Origin: Porodaedalea pini
Taxonomy: Eukaryota > Basidiomycota > Agaricomycetes > Hymenochaetales > Hymenochaetaceae
Assembly (NCBI GenBank): GCA_002794775.1
Contig: NBAY01000038.1
Location: 365,572 to 429,571 of the forward strand
Length of the DNA stretch: 64,000 nt
Direction: 5' to 3'
Below the pieces are notes generated by a model. The model searched no databases. It was not told the DNA's origin and worked only from the letters and a program-made list of their open reading frames with translations. Of the stretch, positions 6,304 through 47,885 are shown in pieces (positions within the stretch are counted from its first letter, which is position 1; each line of letters opens with the position of its first letter). The position numbers and the translations under genes are program-made.

Positions 6304-6599
6304 GCTAGTAAGAGGATGAAGTTGACCTAATGGAATCTGAATAGAATATATGCTCAGTTGGATGTAGTGTACACAACTCTGATTGGTATACCTGAATAGA
6401 ATATGCTAGGTAGTATGAATGAATATAGGAAAGTAGAGAATATATTGAGATGATCACCTCAGTTGGATATAGTGTACACAATTGAGGTGGCAGAGTGAGC
6501 AGCTGGCAGAATATATGCTCAACCAGAAAAGGAAATTCGGACTGAAAGGAGGCTGGGAATGACTAAACTACTTAAATGAGCAACTAGCTGAAGTCCCGA

Positions 6600-21500: not shown

Positions 21501-22189
21501 TGCGGGCCAGGACTCCTTGTCCATTCGCACCTCTCTCACCCTCCTCGTCTCCTCTGCTGCTCTCCACACCCTCCGCATACCTTCCTCGTCGTCCTTCTCT
21601 ACCACGCATTCACCTGGACAGCGAGTAAAGTCGAGTGTCCCCGTCTTCCAGTTGACCTCTGGATTGTGTCGTCGAAGCCAGTTGTACCCCAGGAAGATGT
21701 TAGAAGACGCCAATGAGGTTACTGCCAGGACGATCTGTTCCTTATGATGACCGATCGTGAGTTCAACGTCAACGTATTCCTCGATCAACCCAGCTTCGTT
21801 GTGCGTGCCGTCGGCATTGAGCACCGCAAGGGGTCGGATATACCGCTTCGTCTCTAGCCCATACCGTTCGATGAACCTCACGTCGATGCACGATCCTGTA
21901 CATCCCGAGTCCACGAGTGCGTGAGCGTCTACCTCCCTCACTTCACCTTTCACACTGTGTCCGACGTTCAGGAGAAGGTCCAGCTGGCGTCCGCCAGTTC
22001 CTCTCATGAACAACTGCTCGTACCCTTCACTTCTTTTCACACCGGTGGGGACTTCATACTCCGGAAAACCATCGACGTCGTTCGCATCTACGTGTTGTAC
22101 AGACGGTTGGTTATATTTTAACGAGTCCGGATTCAAAGTCCCTTGTTCTTCCCGGTCAGTCGCCCCGATGGCTACGCCTGACCACTCGC
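18546..22189 (-). CDS. pol: Element 2 Pol polyprotein (protease, RT, RNase H, integrase, chromodomain)
   Basis: The frame runs from the frameshift site to a TAA that directly abuts the LTR; the polypurine tract encodes the last residues (LRGG). Numbering from the TTG at 22136 (1196 residues): aspartic protease DSG at 76-78; RT with TKLDL near 334 and YLDD at 400-403; RNase H Asp/Glu/Asp/Asp candidates at 548, 589, 616 and 659; integrase HHCC zinc finger at His745, His752, Cys782 and Cys785; catalytic Asp815, Asp875 and Glu911 (35-residue spacing); chromodomain near 1095-1150 (EVEEVIDSRLHRGKLQYLVK). It copies the RNA into cDNA and inserts it; the chromodomain usually steers insertion to marked chromatin. 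There is no ATG at the head and the frame is open upstream into gag, so it is made as Gag-Pol. Likely functional. Confidence 0.93.
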
Positions 22190-22196
22190 AAAACCC
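22153..22196 (-). promoter_or_regulatory. Element 2 -1 frameshift signal (GGGTTTT plus stem-loop)
   Basis: On minus, the gag codons CAG-GGT-TTT contain G-GGT-TTT at 22196-22190, eight codons before the gag stop TAG. Slipping -1 leads straight into the open pol frame (TGC GAG TGG ...). After a 5-nt spacer, TGGTCAG (22184-22178) can pair with CTGACCG (22159-22153). The heptamer fits the X-XXY-YYZ rule. Confidence 0.75.
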
Positions 22197-23251
22197 TGCG
22201 AGTCAACGACCTCTTCGTCATTCTCTCCTTCCTCCACATAGTCCTCCACCGTCGACCTCCGAGTGTCTACGACTTCCTCGAAGGCTGACTCCTTCATCGC
22301 TCCGAGCTCGTCTGCGAGGATGCGGCGTTCGCCAGGGGCCATCAGTTCCAGCATACGCTGGATAATCGGTTTCCCCTGCGGGCACCTGTCCTTGAAGTGG
22401 CCTTCTTGACCACAGATCCAGCAAGCTCTTCTGCGACGTGCCTCGTTCATAGAGACGTCCATCGGTTGTCCGATACCTCCGAACGTGACGCCGGTCGCGT
22501 CGCGTTTGTCGACGTGCGGGGTTGCAACTTGGCGCCGAGCGGGGGGTGCCGGTTGTTGTTGGCGAGGTTGCGGTATGAACGGGCGGCCTCGTTGAATCGC
22601 GCGGATCTGCTGTTCTCCGCGATCGATCTCGATAGCTTTGTTCTTCCACGCCTCATACGTTGTCGGTACGGGCGTCGACCTCAGCACGCCGCGGACTACC
22701 TCGATGTTCATTGCTCGCTTGAGGCGGTCGCAGATAACGCTGTCGTCTTTCAGTTCCGCCCGCTTGATGATGACGTCAAGTTGTTGGAAGAATTTATCCG
22801 CGGTGAGGTCCTTCTGAACCTTCTCCCGGAAATCCTTCAGCGCAGCTTCCTTTCGGTTCGGATCGTCGAACGAGGCGTCGAGTCGTTCCTGGAATCTTTC
22901 CCAGCTGTCCGTGAAGGTAACAATTCCCGCCGTTGTCAACTCCTCGACGTAGTTCTGCGCCCACGTTGCCGCATTACCACCCTTCAGGTAGGAGAGAGCT
23001 ACGTAGATCTTACTCTCCGACGTAGGGTATCGGTTTGGGTTCGCGGACACGAAAAGAAGGACTTCGCGTCTGAAGTCAAGGTAATCGTCGCCACCAGTGA
23101 ATTCACGTGGTCGGGCGACGTCTATGTTGGGGGTCGGGGGGTTAGCGGCCGCGACCGGTGCTGGGGCGTTGTTCGCCTGATGGGCGAAGGCATTCGCAAC
23201 GATGGCCGCGATCTGCGCCATTTGCTGTTGGCTGAAACCTTCTGCTGACAT
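22172..23251 (-). CDS. gag: Element 2 Gag
   Basis: Structural protein of the virus-like particle, 359 residues, starting MSAEGFSQQQMAQ at 23251. The middle holds the retrotransposon Gag fold, with LSYLKGGNAATWAQNYVEE near residue 90 and the FDDPNRKEAAL segment. Near residues 274-287 is a CCHC zinc knuckle (CWICGQEGHFKDRC) that binds RNA, with a basic run before it. The C-terminus is acidic and ends in FASGQA. No stop or frameshift. It overlaps the pol frame through the slippery site. Element 1 has a near full-length homologue at 24706-25788. Confidence 0.93.
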   Translation of the reverse strand: MSAEGFSQQQMAQIAAIVANAFAHQANNAPAPVAAANPPTPNIDVARPREFTGGDDYLDFRREVLLFVSANPNRYPTSESKIYVALSYLKGGNAATWAQNYVEELTTAGIVTFTDSWERFQERLDASFDDPNRKEAALKDFREKVQKDLTADKFFQQLDVIIKRAELKDDSVICDRLKRAMNIEVVRGVLRSTPVPTTYEAWKNKAIEIDRGEQQIRAIQRGRPFIPQPRQQQPAPPARRQVATPHVDKRDATGVTFGGIGQPMDVSMNEARRRRACWICGQEGHFKDRCPQGKPIIQRMLELMAPGERRILADELGAMKESAFEEVVDTRRSTVEDYVEEGENDEEVVDSQGFASGQA

Positions 23252-28692: not shown

Positions 28693-31600
28693 CTATTGGG
28701 GAGACTGACTGAGAAGAACAAGGGGCTTCAAATAAAATATAGTCAACCATCTGTACAATACCTAGATGCAAATGATGTTGATGACTTTTCTGATTATGAA
28801 GTCCCCACTGGTGTGAAATAAAATGACAAGTATAAGCAGCTGTTCATGAGGGGAACTGGCAGATGCCAGCTGGACCTCCTCCTGAATGTCAAACACAGCG
28901 TAGCGGGTGGAAGGAGAGAGGTGGATATGCATGCCCTCATGGATTCAGGGTGTATGGGATTGTGCATCAATGTAAGGTTCATCAAATGGTATGGGCTAGA
29001 GACCAAGCGTTACATTCAACCCCTCACAGTGCTCAACACTGACAGCATGCACAACAAGGCAGGGTTAATCAAGGAGTACATCAACATCAAACTAGTGATT
29101 GGACACCACAAGGAAAGGATTGTCCTTGCAGTGACATCCCTGGCGTTGTTAAATATCTTCCTTGGCTATGACTGGCTTCAACGTCATAACCCAGAAGTTG
29201 ACTGGAAGTCAGGAACGATTGAATTCACTCGATGCCCGAGCGAAATGTGTGATGAAGGAGAGTGAGGTGGAAGAGATGAGGAGGGTGTGAGAGGTGCAAA
29301 TGGACAAGGTGTCCTGGCCCACATATCTCAATGACTACACTGACATCTTCTCAGAGAAGGGATTCAAGAAACTGCCGAAACACTGACCATGGGACCACGT
29401 TATTGACTTGAAACCCGACTTCAAACCCAGTGACTGTAAGATCTATCTGCTGACACTGATGAAACAGGAGTCGCTGAAGGATTTCCTCAAGGAGAACCTG
29501 AAGTTGGGCCACATACAAAAGTCGATTTCACTGATAGCATTGCCTTTCTTCTTCATCAAGAAGGCTGACAAATCTCTATGCCCAATCCAGGATTACTGTA
29601 AGCTCAACAATGGTACAATAAAGAACAAGTATCCCCTCCCCCTCATCGATGAACTTGTCAACAAGGTCAAGAAAGTGAAGTTCATCACTAAGCTTGACCT
29701 TTGCTGGGATACTACAACATCTGGATCCATGAAGGTGACGAGGAGAAGGCAGCCTTTTGCATGAACATGGGCCTCTTTGAGCTGATGGTGATGTTCTTCG
29801 GTCTTTGTAATGTGCCAGTGACGTTCCAGGCCTTTGTCAACCATATCTTCAAGGACTTGATCTACGTAAACCTGATTATCATTTACCTCGACGACATCCT
29901 GATCCTCTCAGAGACAATCAAGGAACACATCAATACAATGAGACGCATGCTTCAGATCCTTTGGGAGAACAGCCTGTACCTGAAACTGGAGAAGTGCAAA
30001 TTCAATGTCAAGGTTGTTAAGTACCTTAGTCACATCATTGGCAACAGTGAATTGAAGGCTGACCCGGCAAAGACAGAAGCAATTGCTAGCTGGCCCACCC
30101 TGCAAAACCTCAAGGGACTCCAGAAGTTCCTCGGCATAGGCAACTGGCTCTGATGGTTTATCCAGGACTATAGTAAAGTGGTCTGACCATTGACGTCGCT
30201 GACTGGGAAATTGGGCTGGAAATGGGAAGAAGAGCAGCAGGTGGCATTCAAGGAACTGAAGTGCTGGCTAAGCTCACCTCCCATCCTGGCGATCGTGAAC
30301 AATGAGGGCCCTTTCCACATTGAGGTGGACTCATCAAACTACATGCTTGGTGGTGTGCTGTTGCAGAAGCAGGAAGGGAAGTGGAGGGTAATTGCATACC
30401 AGTCAGAGGCACTTCTACCCATGGAACAGAACTACAAGATCTACAACAAGGAGATGCTCATGATTGTTTCAGCATTAAAGGAGTGGCAGCAGTATCTTCT
30501 CAGCGCCAAGCACAAGTTTGAGGTCTGGTCCAACCACACTAACCTAACATACTTCAGGTCAGCGTAAAAGCTGAGCTATTGTCAAGCTCACTGGTGGACG
30601 GAACTCAAGGAATTCAACTTCTACCTTGAACACAAGCTGGGAAGATGATGGGCAAAGTGGACCTTCTGTCACGCAAGGCTGGATACAACAAAGGCGGAGA
30701 TGACAACAACGGTATCGTGTTCATCAAGGAGAAATGGTTGAACCAGGAGGTGGTGAGAACATCATGTGATGAAGTGTTAGATTGAGTGGGTGAAGCACAG
30801 AGGGTGCAAGACGAGTTGGAGAGGCCGATGGGTATGGCAAAGGTTGATGGATTGTGGCAGATGAGAGGCAAGATTTATGTGCTGTCGACAATGAAGGAGA
30901 CCATATTGCAAGAGTATCACGACTCGGTGCTGGCAGGACATCCAGGAGCATCGAAGATGGTAGAACTCATGCATCGTGAATTCTGGTGGGCGTCAATGTT
31001 CTCTGACATCCGAGCGTATGTCTAAGGCTGTGATTGCTGTCAACACACAAAGGCACTTAGGACGTTGAGGTCAAGGCCCCTCCACCCAAATGTGGTACCA
31101 GAAGGTCCTTGGGAAATCATTACCACTGATCTCATTGGAGAACTCCCCAACTCGAAGGGACACAATGCCATCTGCATCTTTGTCAACAGGTTCTTGAAGC
31201 AGATACATGCAATCCCAACAACAATGAAACTCTTAGCAGAAGGTATGGCACAGTTATATCAGGATCACATCTTTCATCTGCATGGCCTGCCTAAGAAGAT
31301 CATCTATGACCGAGGGACACAGTTCAATGTGTCAATGATAAAGGAACTGTACAAACTCCTACACATCAAAGGCAACCCATCGACAGTGTACCACCCACAG
31401 ATAGATGGTCAAATGGAGCACGTCAACCAAAAGTTTGAACAATACCTTTGACTCTTCATTGACCATTGGCAATTGGACTGGAAGGACTGGCTCCCCCTCA
31501 CAGAGTTCACATACAACAACTGTGAACACTCGGTGACAAAGATGTCCCCTTTCTATGCAAATACAGGATGTCATCCTCGAAGCTTCAACACAATGCAAAC

Positions 31601-33386
31601 TTCCTCTGCCAACATGTCAGTGGAAGAATTTGTGAAGCACATCAAGGAGACTCACCACATCGTAAAAGACAACCTGGTCAAGGCAGCTGAGGACATGAAA
31701 CGCTACCATGACCAGACAGCAGGGGCATCAGTAGAATACAAGGCTGGGGACAAGATCTTCCTGGACGGACAGTGATAATACTGAGTTCCGGTTGTTAGTA
31801 AAGGGGAATCAGATGATTGAGTTTGAGGGAGACATGTCTAGTGGGTCAATACCCTTGTTTCAGTCGAGTTCTGTGGGTTCCGGATTGAAGGATTCGAGTT
31901 GTGTGCGTTCCAGCGTGTCAGGGGCAACAGAATCAGCAGAGCGCGCTAGTAGGGAAGTGTTTGAAGTGTAGCACTGGTGGAGCACTCGAAATGTGTGGGG
32001 GATCATCGGTGACTGTGTCAGAAGATGTGGAGATGCACTAACACTAGTGCGACTTCTCAGGCCGGGATTGTCCTTGGAATGGACAGCTGGTCCCTGTGCT
32101 CAACAGGACGTCATCTGAAATACCAGGGGGCGAGGCAATGTACAGAACTAAATCAGAAGATAAAAGATGAGAGGGGAGTGAGGTCAAGGTAATGAGAACA
32201 AAGTGGAATGAGGTGAAGATAGAATGGATAGAATGAGTGCAATGAGCACAACATGAATAAGATGAAGTCGAGGTGAGCGATTCGAGTCACTAAGGCACCA
32301 AAGTGTTCCTAGGGACCATCCTGAGAGATATCACACAGAATTAGGTGTCAAAACTCAGGGGTGAAATTGCTGTTCTATCTACAACATTTGGTGCTCTATA
32401 AATACTAAACAAGTGTCCTGCGTAAACATGAAAGGCAAAATAAAATGAGACGAGTCCTCTATTGTCCTACCACTGAGCCACCCGAGTGTTCCTTTGAGCA
32501 GCGCCACGATCCAGACAACTGAAAGGCAGGGGCGGTGCATGTTGACTTGGCATAGCATTGGTGAGCTTCAGGATCCTTTGTACAGAACCAGAACGACCAA
32601 TGCCAGGCTGCCACGTGTTTGTTAGACAAAGGCAAATGAACAAACCTTTGGCAGGGTCAAAGGGGCATGCACACAGATAAGTGCACCGGGGTTGGTCTGA
32701 GTTGCTGATGCATGCGATCCAGTTGTTGCATGCATTCTGTGTTCAGGTAATCACCACTGATCTGGGTGTACTGCTTAGCTCAATTGCTGAGTTGAGGCTC
32801 TTCGACTTTGTGATGTACATCACGTGCGTTCTGCTTGTTCCGTGCCCAATGATTCGGTTGGTGTTACAGTGGAACATCAGTACAGATTCACTGACAAAGA
32901 AGCTTGCCAACAAATGGTATGGCCCCTTCGACATTGTTGACAAGGTGGGAGCAAGTGCATACAAGCTCAAGCTCTCAAAACGATGGAAGAAGGTCCACCC
33001 AGTCTTCAATGAGGCCCTGCTGAAACCTGCTGTCAAACTGTCTTTCGAAAGCCAGAAGCAGCCACCACCACCACCACCACCACCACCTGATGTCGTCGAC
33101 AATGAGGAGGAGTACAAGATTGAGGAGGTTCTAGACTCATGCCTGCACTAAGGGAAGCTACAATACCTCATCAAGTGGGTCAGCTACAATGAACCAACCT
33201 GGCAGCCCGAGATGGACTTCAGCAAGAATGCAAAGGAGGTGATCACTGAATTCTATCAAAAACATCCCGGCGCCCCTTGTAAACTCAATATTCCTCACCA
33301 ACAACTCCATCCTCTCTTTGTTGACACTGAACCAGATGATTGCAATCTTGGTTGGTTGGGACGCCCAACCTTGAGGGGGGGGGGGT
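28693..33386 (+). pseudogene. Element 3 pol
   Basis: Homologous to element 2 Pol along its length: protease (MDSGCMGLCINV near 28940), RT YLDDILIL near 29890, RNase H, integrase and chromodomain tail to LRGGGG at 33386. Frames shift at least twice (between 29265 and 29408, and near 30600) and stops are frequent. C-to-T type changes abound (for example Arg codons turned to Cys, Gln or stop). A 1.1-kb insertion lies between integrase and chromodomain. Confidence 0.85.
31775..32871. mobile_element. 1.1-kb insertion in element 3 pol, probable solo LTR of another family
   Basis: Pol homology breaks after LDGQ and resumes at NISTDS. ACAGTG stands on both sides (31769-31774 and 32866-32871). Inside are no coding motifs, but promoter-like TCTATAAATACTAAAC (near 32395) and TTCGAGTC-type words like those at 690-2029. 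I infer a solo LTR of an unrelated retroelement; the exact ends are uncertain. Confidence 0.6.
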
Positions 33387-33388
33387 AA

Positions 33389-33829
33389 TGTTAGGACTCG
33401 AACTTCCACCTTTTCTTTTATTTTCCTTTTACCATTTCCTTTACTTTAATCACTCCCTTTTCATTATATTTAACCATCTTTTCAATCATTTCCCACACTC
33501 CCTTGCACCTGACCTTCATTCATTCCATTCTGCTCCTTTTATATAATCATTAGACAATTGAGCAACCAGTTCTCATGAGGTGATCACTGTATATAAGGAA
33601 GAGGAATCACCTGAACACCTGTTCTGCTTTTCCTCTTACCTCCACAATAACCTAGGTGAGACCACATCCCCCTCCTGTAGTAGAGTATATTGTATTAATC
33701 CTCTTACCTCCACGATGACCTAGTCTGAGTACAGCATGTCCCGAGTCCCCACTCGAGTATAGCATGTCCTGGACAACAGTTAGCTGAGGCCTGCCCAGTC
33801 CGAGTCATCTCCCAGACTCCCGCCTAACA
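33389..33829 (+). repeat. Element 3 3' LTR
   Basis: 441 bp, TGTTAGGACTC...CGCCTAACA, preceded by TTGAGGGGGGGGGGGTAA (polypurine tract plus pol stop). It contains TATATAAGG and GTTCTGCTTTT 31 nt apart. Confidence 0.92.
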
Positions 33830-34009
33830 GGACCCTGCCTCAAGCAACAAACAGAAATGTGGTGGTAGTGCATGTCGTGGGGCAGCCAGAAATGAGTTCA
33901 CTGGCAAGCAGCTCATGGAAATAGTCTGGATCGCTCTCGATATCAGCCTGATGGCCATGACGAGCAGGAAGAAGCAAGAAAAGTGGAAGGTATTTGTCCA
34001 GAAGGCCAC

Positions 34010-34634
34010 TGTAGATCCCGACTTAGGGGTGTCCAGGATCAGTGGTCCTTTTGGGGACGTGATCGCATTGTTCTGGGAGGTTAGGGGTTGACTGCAGAGG
34101 GATCACTCAACGTACCAGTACATGTCGGTATGCTTCAGTATGCGCCGGTACGAGTTGATATCGAGAACTAAGGTCGGGAACTCCTGTCGGGTCTGTACTT
34201 GACCGGTACGGGGTCGGTACGTGCAGGTAATCAACACTGGTACAATGTGATCATGACGAGCGACGAGGTTCAAGTTATGGAATAAGAGACTAGAGACGGT
34301 TTCAAGAGACGAGATGCTAAGACAAAGACAGAATGACAATGAGGTATACGAGAACTAAGACAGATTGCACTCAAGTTACCCTATCTGAGGGAGACTCTGC
34401 GGTAGAACTGACTTGTCCTCTACCTACGACATGGGGTGCATATTTATACTAAGTCCAAAGATCTATCTACAGTTAATAAATTCCATACAGGCATAATGTG
34501 CATATCAGTTGAAATGTAGAGATGTCAAAAGGAAAAGTCATAGGTCATAGAGGCATGCATAGAGAGCATAGAAATCAGAAGAACATAGGAAAAACATAAA
34601 TCATAATGAAGAAAAACGTCCGCATCGCATCTGA
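34010..34634. repeat. Older LTR of the element 5 family, left part
   Basis: TGTAGATCCCGACTTAGG... matches the first 625 bp of the 934-bp element 5 LTR and stops at CTGA exactly where element 5 begins. The remainder is at 45259-45572. GCCAC on the left (34005-34009) recurs 2 bp beyond the right end, a possible target duplication. Confidence 0.85.
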
Positions 34635-35568
34635 TGTAGATCCTGACTTAGGGGTGTCTGGGATCAATGGTCCTTTTGGGGACATGATCGCGTTGCTCTG
34701 GGAGGTTAGGGGTAGACTGCGGTGAGATCACTCGACATACCGGTATGCGTCGGTACGCTTCAGTACGCGCCAGTACGTGTCAATATCGAGAACAAAGGTT
34801 GGGAACTCCTGTCGGGTCTGTGGTTTGACCGGTACGGAGTTGGTATGCGCGGGTAATCAACACCGGTACGATGTGATCATGACGAGCGACGAGGTTCGAG
34901 TTACGAAGTATGAGACAAGAGACGGTTTCGAGAGACGAGATGCTAAGACAAAGACGGAACAACTACAAGATTACGAGAACTAAGATGGATCGCACTTAAG
35001 TTACCCTATCTGAGGGAGACTCTGCAGTAGAACTGACTTGTCCTCTACCTACGACATGGGGTGCATATTTATACTAAGTCCAAAGATCTATCTACAGTTA
35101 ATAATTTCCATACGGGCATACTGTGCATATCAGTTGAAACATAGAGAAGTCGAAAGGAAAAGTCATAGGTCATAGAGGCACGCATAGAGTGCATAGAAAT
35201 CAGAAGAACATAGGAAAAACATAAATCATAATGAGGAAAAACGTCCGCTTTGCGTCCGATCACACCGGTGCTCCACCAGAACTCAGATCGTCCAATCGGT
35301 ACGTGGCTCCCGTTGTCAGACAGCAGTCCGGTACGCGTCTTGGCTGTATGCTCCATGTGACCACGTCCCTAATCGTCGAGATAAGATCTCCGGTACGTTC
35401 CGGTATGCTTTCGGAGGTGTCGGAACGTGCTGATGATGCAATCGCGAGGTTCTGATTCGAGACCGGACCGATTGGGTTGAGTCCGGTACTGATTGGTACG
35501 CGTCGGAACCAGTTCTTGAATGCTTCTGGAGTGATCGGTGGTGATGGGACGATTGGCACGGCTCTACA
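34635..35568 (-). repeat. Element 5 3' LTR
   Basis: TGTAGATCC...GGCTCTACA. About 40 differences from 44325-45258, nearly all C/T or G/A. Read on minus, a TATAAATA box lies near 35075. The polypurine stretch GCCCCGGGAGA is next to it at 35569. Confidence 0.9.
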
Positions 35569-35729
35569 TCTCCCGGGGCATTTAAATTGTGACTGTCCCC
35601 AGTCACGCCTTCTCTTCTTCTGATATGCGCAAGAAGCTTGATCACGCTGATCACGCGCGTCGGAACATGCTAGAGAGGGTGTTGGAAAAGTGGTCGTACC
35701 GATGGGTTTTTCTCCTGCTTCTTCCAACC

Positions 35730-37911
35730 ATGTCGTCTCCGCACCGCGACAGCAGCAGCAACAGCAACAGCACAGCGCCGCCTCGGCTGGCGCGCAAGGC
35801 ACCCCGTGTACCGGGGTACATTGACAATGTCAGTGCCGTCGAGCACGAGAAGATCACGCAGGACGCCCGCAAGATCGAGCAACGGCTGGTCGACATCGAC
35901 CGGTATGTGCGACGCCGCCTCGGGCGGTACGTGAAACGGCAGGAGACGTTTCTGGTGGGGAGTCGGGGTCGCAAGATCGGCGAATGGTGGAAGTGGGCCG
36001 AGTGGGCATACGGCACGAAGGTGAGTCCTCGAAACTCGATCAAGCACGCGTACCGAGCTGACCAATTCGAAATAGCGCACCCTGGAGAGCTACTACCAGC
36101 TCTACTGGGACTCCGTGGTGCTGGTGAAGTGCCACCCGATCGCGTCCGATCTGCAGACGTACCTCCAGGTTGCGCGGGTCTGGAAGGAGATGCGGTGGGC
36201 GCTGGATGGGCTCGACAAGTCCACCGCCGACCGGCTCTACGGTTGGTATTTCGCCGACCACCAGACGGTCAACCTCACCAAGTACCGGGGTGAGGGATTC
36301 ATTGTACCGGTCGCGGACTGGCCGAACGACGTACCGTACATCGGCGGAGAGCTCGAGTGTGTACTCGTACCCGATGGGTATGGGTATAAGTTCGTCTACC
36401 CCGTGGAGCGTGAGGTGCAACCGCGCTTCATCGGAGTCCCATCGGCTGTACCGGCAGTCGAGGCATTCGTCGAATGTCTCGAAACGCCTGGTCCGCCTGA
36501 GGTCAAGGAGGTCATGAACGAGGAGGAGGAGTGCGCCGTCCCGTGTACCAATGGTACCACGTCTGCACAACAGCAACAGCAGATGGGTCCGCGTGAAGTC
36601 GAGGCGAGCACGATGCGCAAGGAGAGGTCTGGCGTACCGCGTACCGGTGACGCCCCGTCAGCACAACAGCAACAGCAGACGGGTGCTGACAAGTGGCGAT
36701 GGCGTATGACCGTCGAGATCGCGTCTGACGACGAGGAGGGAACGCGTACCGGACCACACGAGGAGCCGCTGCGGCAACAGCAGCAGCAACAACCCGCGCC
36801 GAGCGCGGCGTCAAGTGTCCCGCCCCCAGCGAATGCACCTGGGGGACTATTCTTCGAGATGGAGGTGGCCGCGGAGCACAAAGCCAAGCAGCGGGCGCAA
36901 GACGAAGCCGGTCTCGCTGCCATGTTAGCTGCTCAGGAAGAGGCTTGGAAGCAGGTGGAAGCGACGCGTCAGGCGCGTGAGCGCGGTCATCAGGAGAGTG
37001 GAGGAGGTGCGCGTCGAGCGTGTGAGCGAGGTCGTGGGGGCCCTCGCATGAAGCAATGCCGGGAGCCGCCAGTCGAAGAGGTGGAGGAGCATCTCGCTCC
37101 AGCTGAGCCCGCCCCTGTATCGATGGAGGCAGAGGGTGGTGGTTCGTCATACCACCACGCAGACGAAGGGCGTACCAACGGTACGTCAGGTCCCTCGGTC
37201 ACCGTGTTCGATGGGGTCGAACTGGTCAACCCGGCGACCGGTCGTCTATGGTGGGCGGGACCGCTGCCGGTCCCTCTCGAGGAGGCGTGTGCCAACTGCG
37301 CGCGTCGGGGGAGAATGTGTCAGGGGCAGCCCGGTAGGGCTTGCTTCCTCTGCACGGTCGTCTGGTGGACAGGGTGCTCGCTGGCGACCCAGGGACGTGT
37401 GAAGGAGGTCCGGGGCGGAAAGTCGGGTGGAAAGTGGAAACACGCCGCCCGTGATGAGGGCGTACCGCACGCTGCACCTAAGGCACCGCAGCAGCAGCAG
37501 CAGCAACAGCCGCAGCCGTCTGCGTCATCTGCGCCACCCGTGTCGGCTTCTCTGATCGTGGTGGACACGCCGTCCCCACCACCTCGTGTACCAAGGCCTG
37601 CTGCCGCACGCGTACCGCGGCAGCAGAAGCAGCAACAGAGGGGCCGCGCTGCCTCGCCGCCCGTCGCAGGTCCAAGCCAGTTCGCCGGCGCATACAAGGA
37701 CCCGCGCGAGCTCGTCTCAGAGCACGACTCTGAAGACGAGTTCGACCATGTCGTCGCGGAGCTCGTGCGCGACGTCCGCGAGCTCGAGCGTAGCTCGCGT
37801 CGACTCGCTGCGGAGGCAACTCATCAGGTGGCCAAAGCAGCCTCAATCCATGCACGCCTTGCGGCACTTGAGAAGGGGAAGTGGGGCGCAAGGGAGGAGG
37901 AGGAGGACTAG
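35730..37911 (+). CDS. Unrecognised antisense accessory protein of element 5 (two exons)
   Basis: ATG 35730; exon 1 35730-36020, GT-AG intron 36021-36075 (55 bp), exon 2 36076-37911; about 708 residues, no stop. Start MSSPHRDSSS with low-complexity Ser/Asn, then a basic helical region (HEKITQDARKIEQRL near residues 35-55). A compact Trp/Tyr-rich domain spans roughly 70-230 (WKWAEWAYGTK; LYGWYFADHQTVNL). Then come disordered stretches with CAG-encoded glutamine runs and acidic parts, a cysteine cluster near 500-535 (CANCARRGRMC then CFLC and a later Cys) and a charged C-terminal coiled coil. The cysteine spacing recalls zinc-binding clusters of agaricomycete proteins, so DNA or RNA binding is possible. 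It lies antisense to gag-pol; an intron readable only on this strand would survive retrotransposition of the other strand. Function unknown. Confidence 0.7.
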
Positions 37912-38585
37912 TCGGTATGCGTCGGTACGCGTCGGTACGACTCGGTCCTGCGGAAAGAAGAAAAGAAAAAAAAGAAAAAAATTACGAAGTGTAGTAATTT
38001 ATTTGTATATATTTTTGAATATGGATTTTTCTTTGTTTTCTTTAAGTTTTGGTGTGATAAAACGAAAGAACGAAAAGAATAAGAAAAGGAATGATCGTCC
38101 TTAAGTGTCCATTTGTGATTTTACTAATGTACCGAAAAGGGAAATCAAAGATAGGCCATATAGTTAATGTTTCGATAATCGAGAAAGTGTTCCGTATGAA
38201 AGAATGTAAATGGTTCCATGGTCAAAACATAAACGGGTCATAATTGATTAAAAGATAATAAAATAAAGAGGCGTCGGTACGTGTCGGTACGTGTACCGGT
38301 ACCTTGGATGGCGAACATAATCAGAAATCGCGACTAGGTATCCGAGTCCGACTCAGAGCCATCTTCTTCCACCAGGTCTTCCTTCATCATGCTATGTTCG
38401 TCGTCATCCTGTCGAAGGATTTCGTCAAGGGGAACAGAAATGTCAGATCAGGGAAAATAAGGAATGAGATGAAAAGCTGCAACCCGAATCCAGGAAACCG
38501 ATCCATCGAGTTCCGAGATGATATACGCTCCGGAACGTGTCCTACAGACGACGACGTACGGTCCTAAGTACCGGGCCTTCATCTT
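37912..38585. other. Non-coding spacer between accessory gene and pol
   Basis: Contains GTCGGTACG-type repeats at both ends (37915-37940 and 38270-38300) around an AT-rich middle, probably the 3' UTRs of the two convergent transcripts. Confidence 0.5.
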
Positions 38586-41500
38586 TCAGTCCAACTCCTT
38601 TTTGATCCGGGTGTTCCGTACAAGTACGAGTCGACCGGGCCGGAAATCGTAGTCCTTGATGACGTGCTTATGGACTTCGGTGAACTGTCGAGCGTACTTG
38701 TGTCGAGCATCTCGAACCAACTGCGTGATCCTATCAAGGTCTGCCAGACGCTTCTGTAACTGGCACGCCCAGGTCGCTATCAGTTCCTCGGTACACATCG
38801 GGGAATCCAACGGCGGAGTAAGATAAGTGGCCTCGGTGAGATTGAAAGGAAGTACCAGCTCGACTCCATGAACCATGTAGTACGGCGACATGCCGGTCGA
38901 TTTCTGGATTGTGATACGCTCGGCCCAGAAAACCGAGTAAGCGTGCTCATGCCACTTGGATGCGTTCCCGTCGGCTGCCTTGATCAAGGCTTCCTGGATG
39001 TCGTAATGCCGTTGTTTGACGATCCCGTTGGCCTGAGAATTATATGCCAAGATCTTGATGTGTGAAATGTGGTACCGATCCCGCAACCAATCAAGCGCAG
39101 CGATAAACAGAGTACCGTTATCGGTAACAAGTTCGGGACACGCGCCGTACCGACACAGTAATTCCTGAAAAATGAACTGCCTGATCATGTGACCAGTCTG
39201 CTTTTGTAACAGTCAGAACTCCGGGTAACTGGACAAGGAGCACCGCGCATGTATGATGTAGTGAAAGCCTCCTGAAGCGGGCATGTGCTTCGTGTCGATG
39301 TGGATCCGGGCGAACAATGTCGGTACGTCCGGTACCGATGGTGGTATCAACACTTTTGTGGTCTGGCACATCTGACAGATATGACACGTACACACGAAGT
39401 ATTTGACATCCTCCAAAATCGATGGCCACCAAAACCGATCCAGCAATCGAGCGCGTACCGAATACACCCCCTTGTGTCCGAGATCGTCGTGAGCCTGCTG
39501 GACGAGCAACCAGCGGCGTTCCTGTTCAACGACCAGCTGGGGATGCTCTCGTCGGGTCTTTTGCCAAAGCCGTCCTGCTCACACGAAGAATCCGGAGGCG
39601 TACCGGACGAACAAGGGAAAGCGCTTCTCGTCGATCTCCGGGGGCTTCCTTCCGTGTTCGAGGAGGTACCAAACCAACTCTAATTGCTTATCTTGTGACT
39701 TTACCGAATCCGAGGCCGGGAATCACTGCCCCTGAGGATCTGTGGCTGTACTGGACCCTTCTTTGACGTCGGTACTCAACACCGCTCCATACAAAAACAC
39801 ATACGCCGCATCGATCCATTCTTCATAGTCGTCTTCTTCCCGTGGGTCCTCTGGCGTGGCTCGCCGTCTCGACAGTCCGTCGGTACACGTGAATTCCACG
39901 GCCGGTACGTGGCGAAGCTCGAAGTCGAAAAGGAGAATTCCTGCGATCCACCGGTTTATCGTCGCGTTCGGCTGTAGATCCGGATTGTTAATCATCCCTT
40001 TGACGTATGCTGCGTCCATCTCGACCACCAGGAGCTTAACTCCATAAATAAACAACCTCACCGCCCTCAATGCCCTAAACAACCTGAACAACTCAATCTT
40101 CAGCTGGGAGTACGTCGCCTGTACCGAGTTCCAGTTGATCGACCCGAACCGATTAATCCTTCTCCTACCGTCTGGGTGATCCTGGCCCAACATCCACCCT
40201 ACTCCTATGATCAACGAATCCACCGCTAAGATAACCACTCTGTCCGACCCGTAGTCGATCGCGCACAGTGCCGGGCAGTCGATAACCGCTTCCTTCAACG
40301 TGTCCATCGAATCCTGCTCTTCTGGTCCCCAATCGAATATGTTGTTTTTACGCGTAAGTCGGGTCAATGGTCGAGCTTTCTTCGTGAAATCCTTAATAAA
40401 CACCCTCAACACTCCAACTGTACCAAGAAATCCTTTCACCTCCGTCACCGTTTGACATGGGGGCCAATCCTGCACCTTCTGAACCTTCGAATCGTCTGGT
40501 TCGTGCCCTCGGTACATGAGTTTATTCCCCAAAAATATCGCCGAATCGGTACACGCCTGGAATTTCTTCCTGGAAAACGTACCGCCCACTTTCCTCATCC
40601 TCTGCAGCACTCGATTTACATCGCACAAGTGTTTGTAGATGAACCGGCGGATGCCTGGGTTCTCGGGAATCGTTTTGAACCCCCCGTCGGTACGCTCGTA
40701 CCGTGTAAACCCTCCTTGCGTAATTACATCGTCCGCGAACAGCTGCGCCACCTTAGGAATTTCGTCGCTGAGAATAAACGTGACGTCTCCATGGAGAATC
40801 TGCAGCGAATTTGTGTATCCCATCGGTAACACCTTCAGTCAAAACGTACCGAGCGGGGTCTGGAACGTCGTTAAGTCTCAGGACCGTTCGTCGAGCATTC
40901 GCTGGTCGAAAGCAACAGCGAGATCAAGTACCGTGTAACACGCGTGCCCACTGCACACGTCTACTAGCATCTCGATGTCTGGCGGTATGGCCGAGTCTCA
41001 AATGGTCACTCCGTTCAGATCCTGCAAGTCGATAACGAACCGTAAGGACGCTCTGTCTTTCTTTACCACACAAAACCACCTCAAGCAGTACGACGAGTTT
41101 GACGGTTCAATAACTCCGGTGGCGATCTTCTCCCTGAGTATGTTTAGCGTCTTTTTGAGTATCCCAGGGGGGATCGGTATGTTCTTCCGCACCCACGGTA
41201 CATGCGCCACCGTCGGTATGCATACCAGATCGAAATACGTCGGATCTAAGGTCCCTCTCTCCGTCTCCGACCACGCAAACGCCCCTTCCTGCAACATGAT
41301 CAGATTCACCACCAACTTCTTCTCTTTGTCCCACAGAAATCTGCCTGGGTCCAAATCCATCACGTCCAGCCTTTCCTGCGTAAACTTTCCCGTCGGTACG
41401 AACGGTACCGGTTTCGTCGGTAACTTTGGCATGTCGGCCAATGGATCGGGATGTCGCCTTTGAACTATACGAAACTCCTCCGGTAACACTCCCGGTATGG

Positions 41501-41956
41501 GATGGACCTTCTGCGCCACCCGCTTGTATGCCAAAACACTTCCTTCATCCTCCGTTGAATCCAACACCACCGAACCAAAAGTGTCCGAAGAAGCGTCCAA
41601 AGCAACAGTGCAAGGTGATAAAAGAAAATTCAATCTCTGCGAATAAATAAACGGAGCTGGGGTATTCAAGGTAAAACTTGGGGAAACGTAACGGGAAATA
41701 GTTGAATCAGATTGATTTAAAACATTAGGGGACATTTGTTGAAAACTGTAAACGGGTTGAACGAATTGAGAATTAATTTTGGTTTGAGAAGGGGTTGGAC
41801 GACGAGATAAATAATCGGGGTCATTAAAATGCAAAGATAAAACATCTGTACATGAGCTCGGTACGCGTACCGACGGATCGACTCCGCGGCACGTCTCGCA
41901 TACCATCGGTTTCCACTCATCTCGCCGGCACCGCTGTGTCAGTTCCTCGACTTGTG
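38586..41956 (-). pseudogene. Element 5 pol (RT, RNase H, integrase)
   Basis: One minus frame, -1 to gag, carries RT (RFVIDLQDLNGVTI near 41010; LFADDVITQG near 40740, an FADD active site), RNase H, and integrase with zinc ligands (HDDLGH; CHICQMC) and DDE residues (HIDTKHMP; VTDNGTLF). The expected catalytic Glu after SQANG is Lys (GIVKQRH near 39015), a G-to-A type change. Stops near 40995, 40895, 40850, 39600 and 39205 are mostly TGA where CGA or TGG is expected. It is decayed, while the antisense gene next to it stays open. Ends at 38586 without a chromodomain. Confidence 0.82.
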
Positions 41957-42507
41957 AAAACCCGATTCCGGAGCGCGCCAGAACGCCCGGATACCGGTCG
42001 ACACCTTGCTCCTACGATTCCGATCTCGGGGATCCGTGATGGTTATATGCTGATCGCCCGACAAGAAATCCTTCGTTTCGCATTCGGTAAGAGCAAAAAA
42101 TGGTCGCCCCAACAATACTTCGAACGGTGCCACCGAAACCACCTGAACCTGCAACTTCAAATCCACACCCGCTACCCTGAATCTGGCATCTCGAATCCTT
42201 CCCAATGTCGATGACTTCCCCGCGTCTGCGGCTTCGAGCGTCATTGCGTGATCCGGATCTAAATGAATTCCTAGCTTCTCCCACACGTCTTCCCGAATGA
42301 TGCACACCACTGCCCCTTGATCGAGTATGGCTTCTGCTTCAACGGCGTCCTCGATCAATACCTTAATTACGCGGATGGGAAGCACATTGTGTGCCGCCGG
42401 TCCCGACTCTAAGAGAACCGGAGCCAATGACTCCGGTACCACTCGGTACTCCACGACTTCGCTCCCTTCCTGGTCCGACTCGACGAGGTTGACATTACCG
42501 ACCACGT

Positions 42508-42558
<51 letters not shown>

Positions 42559-44113
42559 TACCATGTTTTGATTCTCGATTGTTCCGGGGAATGTTCAGGT
42601 TACCCACTGGCTTCGGTACGCTCGGTTTCACATTCGAGGTCGTCGGTACGTTCGCTGGACCAGGTTTCGGTCGTACCGGTATCTCGACTCCATCGAACTT
42701 GGCTTTCTTTGCCGCCGACGCTCGCTTCTTCGCTTCGTTCAACAACGTTTTGTACTGCGCCACTTCCAACTCTTCGTCCGATACTTCCTCCACAATTTCG
42801 GCCATCATCGCTGGACCTTCTGACACTTCGGTGCCCATTGTTGTTGACATCGCCACCTCTATGAGGTTAACCGAGGCCGTACTGGTCTCCTGACGCAACA
42901 AGTCTATCTTTTCCATCAAATTATTACCCACCGCCGTGCTCAGTACGAACCCTCCATTCGGTAGCATCACCTTCCCATTCGCATCCCTCACACACTTGCC
43001 TGCCTGGATATACTCCAGCACCTTCGGGCATGACCTAATGTAGTGGCTCGTGTCGCCACAGAACGCACACCCGGGACTCCTCTGGGACGTCGTCGCTGGC
43101 AGCGGTCTTCGCCCAAGTGACTGTACCTGAACCTGAATGTTCTTGACTGCTTCCCACACCGTACCGATATCCACTTCCTTCGACTTTACCTTTGACTGAT
43201 TCGTCGGGTCGGGCGCTCGAGTCATCGGTACGTTGTCAAAAACCATACTGGCCAGGATGTAGTCCACGTGCTTTACCACCAAATCGATCGTATATGGTTT
43301 GCCTGGGGACGGGTCAGCCTCCTTCATTTCTAGGCGTTGCTGTAACCTGTCCTTCATCTTGCCCGTAAAGGCTTGAACGAACGCGCGTGCCGCTTCCTCC
43401 GCTGAAACGATTGAGTTACGTTCCAAATACTTCGACCTCACCATGAACTCTCTCTTATACTCTCCAAAATCCTCCCTCAACTGTATTCCTTTACTCCTCC
43501 AACCTTCGACGAGCCTGTCGAGGTCTTCCCAGGTGAAGCGCACGCCGGGCGCCAATGCCGGGTAGAACGCTATAATTGCCTCTTTCGCCTTCGTCCAATC
43601 GTTCGCTCCTGTACCAACACCATCGGCGGTATCCCACAGCTCAGCTACGGAACTCGAAGCGTAATACTTCATGTACCGGATCTTCGCCGCGTCATCTAAG
43701 TTGCAGTCGGTCGCGATATATTCGATATCCTTGAAGTACCGAGGAAGGTCTAACAGGTTGTGTCCATCAAAGAAGGGAGCGTCTCTGGCTCCGCAATGTG
43801 GAGGACGGTTTGACATGATTCTTACTGGGGGTACTGGCTGTGCCGGAGCTACTACGGTCGATGTCCGTGGCCGCGTAGCCTGTGTGTTAACTGGGTTCGA
43901 CGGAACTGACGACGTACCGACGGGTGAAGATGTCTGTCCCGGTACGGACGAACTAGGATCCGGTAAGACGAGCTGAGTGGTATCGTCTGGGTTGTCGCTC
44001 TCAAGCTCGGTTAGTGGTGACGAGCTAGTCGACGGGGCTGAGGGGACTGTCGACGGAACTGCGGACGAGCTGATTAATGAGAAGGGAGACTGCGCTCCGG
44101 AGTCGAATGACAT
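41939..44113 (-). CDS. gag: Element 5 Gag-protease
   Basis: The first ATG in the frame is 44113 (MSFDSGAQSPFSL), giving about 724 residues; the frame is open further up to the LTR but only from a GTG. A long Ser/Pro/Thr-rich N-terminus leads to a Gag core (RYFKDIEYIATDCNLDDAAK near 43700), a CCHC knuckle (CAFCGDTSHYIRSC near 43060), a glycine run encoded by a 49-nt homopolymer, and a retropepsin-like motif ILDQGAVVCII near 42320, so protease sits at the end of this frame and not in pol. It is open throughout but depends on the homopolymer length. The usual protease Ser/Thr after Asp is Gln here. Confidence 0.82.
41957..41963 (-). promoter_or_regulatory. Element 5 -1 frameshift heptamer GGGTTTT
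   Basis: On minus the gag end reads TCG GGT TTT CAC ... TGA, with G-GGT-TTT in the correct phase. A -1 slip enters an open frame (TCA CAA GTC GAG ...) that continues into RT. Confidence 0.7.
42509..42557. repeat. 49-nt poly-C (poly-G on the gag strand)
   Basis: Uninterrupted C run after GTAC. It encodes the polyglycine of element 5 Gag. It is prone to slippage and to assembly error; a G-quadruplex or triplex is possible on the coding strand. Confidence 0.9.
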
Positions 44114-44324
44114 GTTAAGTTGTTCTAAGTCCAAATCAAGGTAACGCTCTACGGACTCTGAATCCGAATCTGTAGCACGCTCTTTGATACGGCGTCTACG
44201 CTGCCAAGCGTTAGCGGTTCGATATGGATGAGGGGGTTCAATAGTCTGCTGAGATGTCCCACGCGACGAATGCGGTGGATGTGAGGATCGCGACACGTTT
44301 AACCCCCTCGCGGTGGGCTCCACT

Positions 44325-45258
44325 TGTAGATCCTGACTTAGGGGTGTCTGGGATCAACAGTCCTTTTGGGGACATGATCGCGTTGCTCTGGGAGGTTAGG
44401 GGTAGACTGCGGTGAGATCACTCGACGTACCGGTACGCGTTGGTACGCTTCGGTACACACCGGTACGTGTCAATATCGAGAACAAAGGTCGGGAACTCCT
44501 GTCGGGTCTGTGGTTTGACCGGTACGGAGTTGGTATGCGCGGGTAATCAACACCGGTACAATGTGATCACGACAAGCGACGAGGTTCGAGTTACAAAGTA
44601 TGAGACGAGAGACGGTTTCGAGAGACGAGATGCTAAGACAAAGACAGAACGACTACAAGATTATGAGAACTAAGACGGATCGCACTTAAGTTACCCTATC
44701 TGAGGGAGACTCTGCGGTAGAACTGACTTGTCCTCTACCTACGACATGGGGTGCATATTTATACTAAGTCCAAAGATCTATCTACAGTTAATAATTTCCA
44801 TACGGGCATACTGTGCATATCAGTTGAAACATAGAGAAGTCGAAAGGAAAAGTCATAGGTCATAGAGGTGCGCATAGAGTGCATAGAAATCAGAAGAACA
44901 TAGGAAAAACATAAATCATAATGAGGAAAAATGTCCGCTTCGCGTCCGATCACACCGGTGCTCCACCAGAACTCAGATCGTCCAATCGGTACATGGCTCC
45001 CGTTGTCGGACAGCAGTCCAGTATGCATCTTGGCTGTATGCTCCATGTGACCGCGTCCCTAATCGTCGAGATAAGATCTCCAGTACGTTCTGGTATGCTT
45101 TCGGAGGTGTCGGAACGTGCTGATGATGCGATCGCAAGGTTCTGATTCGAGACTGGACCGATTGGGTTGAGTCCGGTACTGATCGGTACACGTCGGAACC
45201 AGTTCTTGAATGCTTCTGGAGTGATCAGCGGTGATGGGACAATCGGCACAGCTCTACA
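44325..45258 (-). repeat. Element 5 5' LTR; PBS alongside
   Basis: 934 bp. On minus the sequence after the LTR is AGTGGAGCCCACCGCGAGG, a TGG-led site two bases in, as for a tRNA primer ending GGGCTCCA. TATAAATA promoter near 44765. Confidence 0.88.
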
Positions 45259-45572
45259 CCGACCATACCGGTGCTCCACCAGAACTCAGATCGTCCAATT
45301 GGTACGTGGCTCCTGTCGTCGGACAGCAGTCCGGTACGTGTCTTGGCTGTATGCTCCATGTGACCGTGTCCCTAATCATCCAGATAAGATCTCCAGTACG
45401 TTCTGATATGCATTCGGAGGTCTTGGAACGTGTTGCTGATGCAATCGCAGGGTTCTGATTCAAAACCAGACCGATCAGATTCAGTCCGGTACTGATCGGT
45501 ACACATTGGAACCAGTTCTCGAGTGCTTCTGGGGCGATCGGTGGTGATGGGATGACCGGCACGGCTCTACAC
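45259..45572. repeat. Older LTR of the element 5 family, right part
   Basis: Completes the LTR begun at 34010: it starts CCGACCATACCGGTG and ends GGCTCTACA. The two pieces sum to about one LTR length (625 + 314 bp including the duplicated 4 bp). Confidence 0.85.
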
Positions 45573-46757
45573 TGCCACCAGCAGAATGAATCATACACAG
45601 GAAGTATATAGGAAGAAATTGACACAAGTCATGAAATGACATGAGGTATGTAAAGTTTTGGAATCACGTACTCTGCTGATTCCAATCTTCTCTTTTATTT
45701 TGTTTAGGATCCATCTCAGATGACCAAGGTCATTCAGGAAGCACTTTCTGGTACAGAAGGAATAAACATCTCCACCCTCTTGGATTGCCTCTGTCATGAT
45801 CGTGATGTATACAAGGAGAAGACTGATGCAGAGAAAGCCAAGGCTGCAAAGGTAAGTATTCATGCTTCTGTCTTTATTCTCCTGCATATGGCCAGTTTCA
45901 TTTATTAATGCTGGTGTCTATCCCATCTTTGCTGCAATGACATTATGCTTTCATTCTATACTTATTTATTATTATACTATAGAAAGCCAATGAGAACCTC
46001 AAGGGTGGAGAGCTGATCTGTGCACAATCAATGAAGGGTCAATGCCACCATCCACTTGCTCTTGTCCAGACTAATGTTGAGCTGTCTGTCCACCCTTGCC
46101 ATGACAGTGAGATCAGTGACAGTGAAGACAAGGTGCAAACTAATCAGAAAAATAGTGAGGGATACTAATGATCAAATAGTATTGTGACTTATATAAGAAC
46201 CAGAGATGATGCATATCTCAAATGCCAGTAATTTGATGCACTCTTGTGATGATGCAGATGAAAGCAAATCTGAGGATAATACTATCAAAGATGCATCTGG
46301 CTCTCAGCATCAGACAAAATGGCAATGTCACAATAACGAGCTTAAGGCTATTAAGGTCCAGCTTGATGCAGATACAGCAAAAACCCGACTTTTTGAACCC
46401 GAGATGATTGAGAAGAGTACCAAACAAATCTCACTCATCAGGGAGACTTTGCATCTGTAAAAGCAGAGTTTGGAAGTATACAAGGACTCTTAGGACCGTC
46501 TCGCCATGTTCCATAACAACTTTATTAATCTTTTTGCACAGGTTGCAAACAAACTTGCTTTGCAAACATCATGATCATGTTCTGTCTGGGAAGCATGCAA
46601 TAGACATGATCTCCAATGCCTGCCTATCTCTTCAAATATACCCCTGCTTTCTTCGACTGCTTTCATACAATGCATAGACTAATCTTTAATATATTATTGA
46701 TGTAATGATGTGCATATTGTTATTCTTCTGTATATCTTTATAATTCAGCTATTTTCT

Positions 46758-47885
46758 GCTAGTCGTGAAAATATTCATGTAGGGAAGGAGGATCACAATT
46801 AAAATATTATGCTGTTTGATTAGGATGAAGGCAATTCAAAGCATTTGTTAGTATGACAGCCATACAGTAATAAACTCCAACAGGAGAGGAAAACAGCCTC
46901 ATCTTCAAGAATGCATTTAAAAATAGCCAGAAATTGACAATACCCCCAAAACCATGCTTGACCTCAATTTGTATAGCTGCCATGCATGCATTCCAATCCT
47001 GTTCCTGTGCTGTTCACTCACCTGCTCCTGAAAATAGACTGAGCATGATAGGAGAGACCCCATATGCTAGATCACCATATATCTGAAAATATTGATCCTC
47101 GACTGGAGTTCCATCTGTTGCATGGGAGACTCATGCATATTGCTCCAGCTTCTCCAAGAGCCTGCTATCAGCCAGTAAGGCTGGATCAGCCCATCTTCCT
47201 TTGATAGGACCATAGAGATGCCCAATAAGACCATTTGGAAGCATTAATGCCTGATATTTAAGCACATGATACTTCTTATGGCCATTATAAGCAACATGCT
47301 AAAAGAGGCATGGACGTGAGATGTGCCAAATAGTACAATCAATGAGTGCAATGAGTTGAGGAAGTGGGGTGCCACCTTCATTATGGAATGCATGTGCGTA
47401 CTTGACAAGATTTGCCTGTTTAAATAGGCCCACATGATTGAAATTGAGGAGATGTGACCAGCACTCATTGAGATATATGCACATAAAGTGCTTGTAGAGC
47501 ATGGTAAGAAGGTAGAGCTCTTCAGCAGTGCAAAATCTGGCAAGAAGCAGACAGAGGGCTTCAACTCCAGAGAAAGTATGATGTGCCTGTGTAACTACAA
47601 TCTCTGGAATATCAAGTGCACTTAGAAGTTGCTTTATATCTCAAAATGAAAAGCTTTAATTATAATTATTAAATGATTATTTATTGAAAAGACAAAATAC
47701 ACACCAGAAATGCTATCTACACTCTGACCTAGGCATCTTCTTCAACCATTTCATAGTAATATGCTGCCCACTAATACAGGGATATGCTCAGAAATGTGAG
47801 CTGTGATGATGCAAAGCATGTGCTATAAAAAGTGCCTTTAACTTGAAGAGCTTCGAAGAAGGTGACTTTATGGCTACAGAAGTTA
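46758..47885 (-). pseudogene. PIF/Harbinger-like DDE transposase, main part
   Basis: Minus strand, reading leftward: SALDIPEIVVTQAHHTFSG and ALCLLLARFC near 47560-47610, the first Asp motif ALIDCTIWHISRPCLF near 47330, YNGHKKYHVLKYQ, LYGPIKGRWADPALLADS (second Asp), YGDLAYG (third), and a C-terminal IVNFWLFL...AVILTNALNCLHP...YFNCDPPSLHEYF block typical of fungal DDE_Tnp_4 proteins. Stops occur at CGA-like positions (LF-stop-HVAYNG, YA-stop-VSHATDG), and the last acidic residue of the VEW-type motif is Lys. The N-terminus lies beyond element 4 (57065-57173). Convergent with the possible partner gene upstream. Confidence 0.75.

Follow-up and report, generated by a model that had tools for sequence, protein, structure and literature searches.

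An intron-containing gene antisense to gag-pol in Ty3/gypsy-type retrotransposons of Porodaedalea pini, with a six-cysteine motif common to two element families and a probable accessory role

The locus described here lies in a stretch of 64,000 nucleotides from the basidiomycete Porodaedalea pini (contig NBAY01000038.1, positions 365,572 to 429,571 of the forward strand), referred to below as the window. It raises the question of why an LTR retrotransposon should harbor a long, two-exon open frame on the strand opposite to its own gag-pol. On the sequence comparisons presented below, the frame is probably a lasting, element-owned antisense accessory gene, the product of which would be a nuclear DNA-binding regulator of the element. 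The analysis supports this with the structure and position of the gene, a conserved intron, six cysteines, moderate constraint between subfamilies and a relative in a second element family. The features of the window copy are as follows, with the LTRs named relative to gag-pol.

34635 to 35568, minus strand: 3' LTR.
35581 to 35606, plus strand: TTTAAA box, with the inverted repeat GTGACT-N6-AGTCAC; both precede the antisense ATG and occur in family 2 too.
35730 to 36020, plus strand: exon 1 of the antisense gene, 291 nt, 97 codons from the ATG, alignable in other copies.
36021 to 36075, plus strand: intron of the antisense gene as predicted from sequence, 55 nt, phase 0, GT-AG (GTGAGT ... CTGAC ... 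ATAG).
36076 to 37911, plus strand: exon 2 of the antisense gene, 1836 nt, 611 codons and TAG.
37288 to 37422, plus strand: stretch with the six-cysteine (C6) motif, Cys 502, 505, 512, 520, 523 and 531, within 37288-37377.
37912 to 38330, no strand: A+T-rich gap between the two converging genes, 35% G+C.
38586 to 44353, minus strand: gag-pol of the same copy, in several frames, with protease and RNase H matched.
44325 to 45258, minus strand: 5' LTR.

An earlier note on this DNA had described a spliced frame of about 708 codons antisense to gag-pol and inside the LTRs, and this description is confirmed: the 291-nt and 1836-nt exons, joined across the 55-nt GT-AG intron, give a stop-free protein of 708 amino acids (35730-37911, plus strand). 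The gene is located between the pol/integrase end and the 3' LTR, on the strand opposite gag-pol, and thus has the position and orientation of an antisense open reading frame between pol and the 3' LTR (aORF-3R). The G+C content is 64% in the antisense gene, 53% in gag-pol and 35% in the intervening gap. The same note had seen several stops in pol; gag-pol of this copy is split over several frames on the minus strand, with matches to protease and RNase H. The two LTRs are alike at 892 of 934 positions; all 42 differences are transitions, with no transversions, which is decay of the deamination type and makes LTR dating unsafe, so that an LTR-based age estimate was dropped. No Rfam match was found over 33000-47000.

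Several other repeats surround or interrupt this copy. The element is embedded in an older LTR from the same family: 34010-34634, to its left, corresponds to LTR positions 1-625 (89%), and 45264-45571, to its right, to LTR positions 627-934 (88%). A run of 49 C on the plus strand (42509-42557) lies within the gag frame of the same copy. A plus-strand gypsy element at about 29000-33300 has a piece of a second-family LTR inside it (31904-32868, 83% identity), and a neighboring minus-strand gypsy element (18549-22202) has an open frame of 1218 amino acids with matches to protease, reverse transcriptase, RNase H, integrase and a chromodomain.

The antisense gene is repeated in the genome. Searches of the organism's own assembly, covering 53.3 Mb in 201 contigs, returned at least 44 matching pieces at the DNA level and at least 72 at the protein level, and in other copies the gene was again found opposite gag-pol, in the antisense position that had been proposed as a check. 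Nineteen copies were aligned, and 14 of these span the whole gene (L001-L008, L011-L015 and L021). Six of the 14 (L001-L006) are open from end to end and encode 705-714 amino acids, the other eight being broken; the frame survives the indels of the open copies (such as +18, or -2 combined with +11). A further copy, L010, has lost part of exon 1 and part of the intron, and its joined aligned exon columns read open for 688 codons. The gene thus shares with the aORF-3R class both its presence in many copies and conservation at the protein level, the constraint being moderate, and absent within the young subfamily A.

Three weak genome hits led to a second gypsy-type family (L059-L063) with a related antisense gene in the same place and orientation. 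In L062 the gene consists of exon 1 (1106-1279), an intron (1280-1330) and exon 2 (1331-2899), encodes 580 amino acids and lies opposite the integrase-side frame; the L062 intron, if retained, brings in an in-frame stop. The intron of family 2 is in phase 0, as in family 1, and measures 51-52 nt in the four copies that extend that far. Between the two families, integrase pieces show 57-62% identity. The kinship of the antisense proteins covers their C-terminal part, not the N-terminal halves, and there amounts to 30% identity over 213 columns, with an alignment score of 209, compared with 86.9 +/- 13.9 and at most 127 for 500 shuffled controls. Taken separately, the C6 part (71, shuffle maximum 50) and the sequence that follows it (171, shuffle maximum 125) also score higher than their controls. 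A genome search with the family 2 protein found at least 77 pieces, 20 of them from family 1. The best reading of these comparisons is that the antisense gene has been carried since before the two families split, within a lineage of Ty3/gypsy type.

The two families also have in common about 55 nt just inside the 3' LTR, made up of a purine-rich tract, TTTAAA and GTGACTGTCCCNAGTCAC with its 6-bp inverted repeat. In the window the purine-rich tract is on the gag-pol strand at about 35569-35578 and adjoins the block of TTTAAA and inverted repeat. The pattern of this start block has 70 matches in the genome and the reversed pattern none, and 53 of the 70 blocks are followed by a match to the gene on the same strand. 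Sorted by box, the hit lists place a gene match downstream of 52 of 58 TTTAAA blocks, of the single TTCAAA block and of none of the 11 TTGAAA blocks. These 11 loci, where no antisense gene match lies downstream, keep the purine tract and the inverted repeat. Two of them were read (L064, 1-801; L024, about 5880-6501) and are 96% alike over 622 nt; beyond the block, L064 has little in common with the gene region except for a 20-nt stretch, and the two look like a derivative without the gene. The TTGAAA group is probably one lineage and hence counts as one event. The retention of the inverted repeat in such derivatives weakens it as an antisense promoter; the repeat and the purine tract probably have a role in replication, and TTTAAA, as the better candidate box, may serve the antisense gene.

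Of the 29 fetched copies spanning the junction, 28 have the intron, and precise loss is seen in none; the count comprises L001-L028, 26 of these 28 with the intron, together with L050 and L054. The copies without an intact intron are L010, with its deletion at the junction, and L028, which stops short of it. The intron is 54-56 nt long, starts with GTGAGT, contains C/TTGAC/T as a possible branch site and ends in AG; in L023 it measures 55 nt and adjoins foreign sequence. This persistence is as the earlier note had expected if reverse transcription uses only the complementary strand. The retained intron, the splicing of which is predicted, agrees with a gene whose mRNA does not serve as template for reverse transcription: we propose that it is not lost because the antisense mRNA would be neither packaged nor copied. 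Host RNA polymerase II would start near the inner edge of the 3' LTR, at the TTTAAA box, and transcribe against gag-pol; the intron would be removed from this transcript by splicing, and transcription would end in the A+T-rich gap that faces the end of pol. As such, the case shows how an intron in a retroelement can persist, by being located on the strand that is not reverse-transcribed.

The nature of the protein is best approached through its cysteines. The window protein has 13, and the cysteine cluster noted earlier holds for six of them, which are common to other copies. Each of the six positions of the C6 motif is cysteine in every other copy that covers it, 27 or 28 in number (31 loci were given), and the remaining seven cysteines are missing in at least two thirds of the copies covering them, usually with Arg or His instead. 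Since the codons TGC and TGT are not CpG targets, cysteine invariance within a family is partly expected, and the stronger evidence for the motif is that family 2 also retains it, with all six cysteines in place. The spacing in both families is C-X2-C-X6-C-X7-C-X2-C-X6/7-C, which resembles the fungal binuclear zinc cluster and agrees with the six-cysteine spacing rule for that domain. The Zn(2)-Cys(6) cluster is usually N-terminal. The likeness to this domain (PF00172) lies in the six cysteines and their similar spacing, whereas the antisense motif is placed near the C-terminus and does not reach the profile cut-off: with Pfam Zn_clus, the C6 stretch of family 2 scores 16.8 bits (E 0.0077), below the cut-off of 21 bits, and neither the window protein nor its C6 stretch gives a match. 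The motif was therefore not filed under PF00172. Structure prediction from single window sequences was poor, with a mean pLDDT of 49 and two predicted helices in the model examined for a two-helix zinc fold, for which a fold search of the PDB gave no match at E 0.001, and a mean pLDDT of 33 in a second model. The window protein has runs of Q, P and S and looks low in order over most of its length. The coiled coil that had been proposed has a crude heptad score as its sole basis, the best stretch being residues 40-74, and the claim is softened to that extent; the glutamine runs and this coil score fit a regulator but prove nothing.

In the preferred reading, the antisense protein would enter the nucleus, where the zinc-cluster-like domain would bind DNA and regulate the element through LTR activity, chromatin state or target choice. 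A nuclear DNA-binding regulator is thus our first choice for the role of the gene, followed by a structural or trafficking protein and, in third place, by a role of the RNA itself. The second of these would have a real, selected gene in which the C6 motif forms a zinc knuckle or a fold for protein contacts, acting in particle assembly, RNA binding or nuclear import. It would account for the failure to reach the Zn_clus cut-off, for the C-terminal placement of the motif and for the low order of most of the protein, but the six-cysteine spacing in both families is near that of the fungal zinc cluster, and the match in family 2, sub-threshold as it is, is to Zn_clus; we regard this role as possible but rather unlikely.

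How strongly the protein is selected bears both on the regulator and on a role for the RNA. The earlier note had set the open antisense frame against the broken pol, and the contrast exists, but it is weak evidence. In the ten copies of subfamily A, transitions make up 523 of 596 two-state exon columns (88%; 26 columns with more states were set aside). CpG changes there have occurred at 354 of 2583 silent cells (13.7%), 494 of 4156 replacement cells (11.9%) and 8 of 67 stop-making cells (11.9%), and only 7 possible CpG changes would create a stop. The transversion ratio in subfamily A is 1.85 (28 replacement and 4 silent, 32 events), that is, there is no constraint, and the pattern of these changes is that of decay under little or no selection. 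Because the young copies decay almost neutrally, their open frames were rejected as proof of selection. The dN/dS among copies, which had been proposed as a measure, is 0.41-0.67 in the 15 pairs of the six open copies, a blend of old constraint and neutral decay that was not used alone.

The coding case rests instead on the comparison of subfamilies and families. In subfamily B the transversion ratio of the annotated frame is 0.45, below that of each of the five alternative frames (0.64-2.65), and for L021 it is 0.55 against 0.72-1.55 in the other frames. Between subfamilies, protein-guided pairing puts it at 0.38-0.64 for seven comparisons out of eight; it is undefined for the remaining one, L002, which lacks silent transversions. 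The corresponding transition ratio is 0.60-0.76. The excess of silent transversions has P values of 2.6e-6 (L050), 1.1e-4 (L054), 0.0034 (L015), 0.016 (L012) and 0.07 (L021), which are not independent, as the copies share ancestry. For pieces of integrase and RNase H, the transversion ratio, where it could be defined, falls between 0 and 0.28 (close pairs contribute few events), and the transition ratio between 0.24 and 1.15. In family 2 the antisense gene shows weak constraint, with transversion ratios of 0.52, 0.69 and 0.78 and one undefined. These ratios indicate that the antisense protein is under moderate constraint, loose and weaker than that on integrase.

Such loose constraint is what might be seen if the antisense RNA were the key product, pairing with gag-pol RNA and so feeding or limiting silencing, with the protein secondary; it has been proposed that antisense transcription of LTR elements gives rise to double-stranded RNA (PMC7264820). 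Against this, the frame, the intron, the cysteines and the C-terminal likeness between families need selection at the protein level, and the antisense gene lies outside gag-pol, so that its exons do not overlap pol. A primary role for the RNA is consequently improbable.

The preferred reading, a regulator owned by the element, also has to be weighed against an origin in the host. Database searches beyond this genome returned no homologue: the exon 2 protein had no relative at E 0.001 among the 7,976 candidates sharing most words that were scored, a search in which genuine relatives may have been displaced by glutamine runs; for the C6 stretch of family 2, none of 8 candidates qualified; 600 pattern matches in IMG/VR included none that was confirmed; and nothing related passed the threshold in searches of Pfam and of PDB sequences. 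A piece of pol from this element, run as a control, matched 432 proteins, and the 120 of these that were listed include fungal names, so the protein database does hold fungal proteins; the best named relative among the matches listed was from Sanghuangporus (62% identity), which fits a basidiomycete. Capture of a host gene, or nesting of an independent transposon within the element, would explain the G+C content of 64% against 53% in gag-pol and the presence of a spliceosomal intron. The gene is at the same place in two element families, however, no separate host gene was recognised among the inspected own-genome hits (most short hits fell outside the inspection), and no relative of the antisense protein was found in the protein database although relatives of pol were. 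The suggestion of captured host coding sequence is therefore not supported, the genome hits being two related families of element-borne genes, and we consider capture or nesting very doubtful, though an old capture before the two families parted may have occurred.

The weakest explanation, a chance open frame in G+C-rich DNA, could draw on the other long frames that overlap the region and on the scarcity of CpG changes able to make a stop (just 7), but it is hardly credible, since the 611-codon run of exon 2 exceeds all 500 dinucleotide shuffles, whose longest runs over six frames average 202 (sd 44) and reach at most 394, the intron and cysteines are conserved and family 2 has a homologue, and the C-terminal score, silent excess, cysteine conservation and shuffle test jointly speak strongly against it.

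An element-owned antisense gene would not stand by itself. Botrytis is an ascomycete. The Boty element of Botrytis cinerea carries an antisense gene, brtn (PMC7264820, PMC8365987), and this record contradicts the earlier note, whose author knew of none like this in fungi; what the two cases have in common is an antisense gene within an LTR element of a fungus. The class of antisense LTR-element genes is already known, fungi included, and antisense accessory genes of this kind have been described mostly in plants, with function unknown (PMC7264820). The aORF-3R genes of plant gypsy elements, which lie between pol and the 3' LTR, include gene23 of Grande and the antisense frames of RIRE2 and of Retand, the last being the TRP28 ORF (PMC7264820, PMC11963269). 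The gene23 of Grande is driven by a promoter of its own and its product is nuclear (PMC7264820, PMC11963269), and the Retand TRP28 ORF occurs in 97% of clusters and may bind DNA (PMC11963269). The fungal gene resembles these in place, in orientation, in its presence in most copies and in encoding a protein without clear relatives. It differs in its host, a fungus rather than a plant, in having the C6 motif where the plant proteins have TRP28 or Smc domains, and in its conserved antisense intron, none being reported for the plant cases in the portions of these sources at hand. In searches of the open-access literature, neither a C6 antisense gene in a basidiomycete LTR element nor a conserved antisense intron with a zinc-cluster-like motif common to two element families was found. 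A fungal case with a conserved intron, two comparable families and a motif of DNA-binding type makes the function of such accessory genes testable.

The studied retroviral antisense case is HBZ of HTLV-1 (PMC10186651). HBZ and the APH proteins are like the proposed regulator in being antisense, on the side of the 3' LTR, spliced, nuclear and of DNA-binding type, and in acting on their own LTR (PMC10186651), whereas HBZ belongs to a retrovirus and has a bZIP domain; the analogy is one of how the proteins work, and sequence kinship is not claimed. By this analogy a bolder and tentative version of the regulator can be put forward, in which a spliced antisense transcription factor of the zinc-cluster type, long carried by a fungal Ty3/gypsy lineage, might set the activity of the element via its LTRs and, since all copies would respond, exert control over copy number across the family. 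If the protein does act on the LTRs, it would form a system of self-control that arose independently of the retroviral antisense genes; and if it is indeed a zinc-cluster transcription factor, it would be the retrotransposon counterpart of HBZ.
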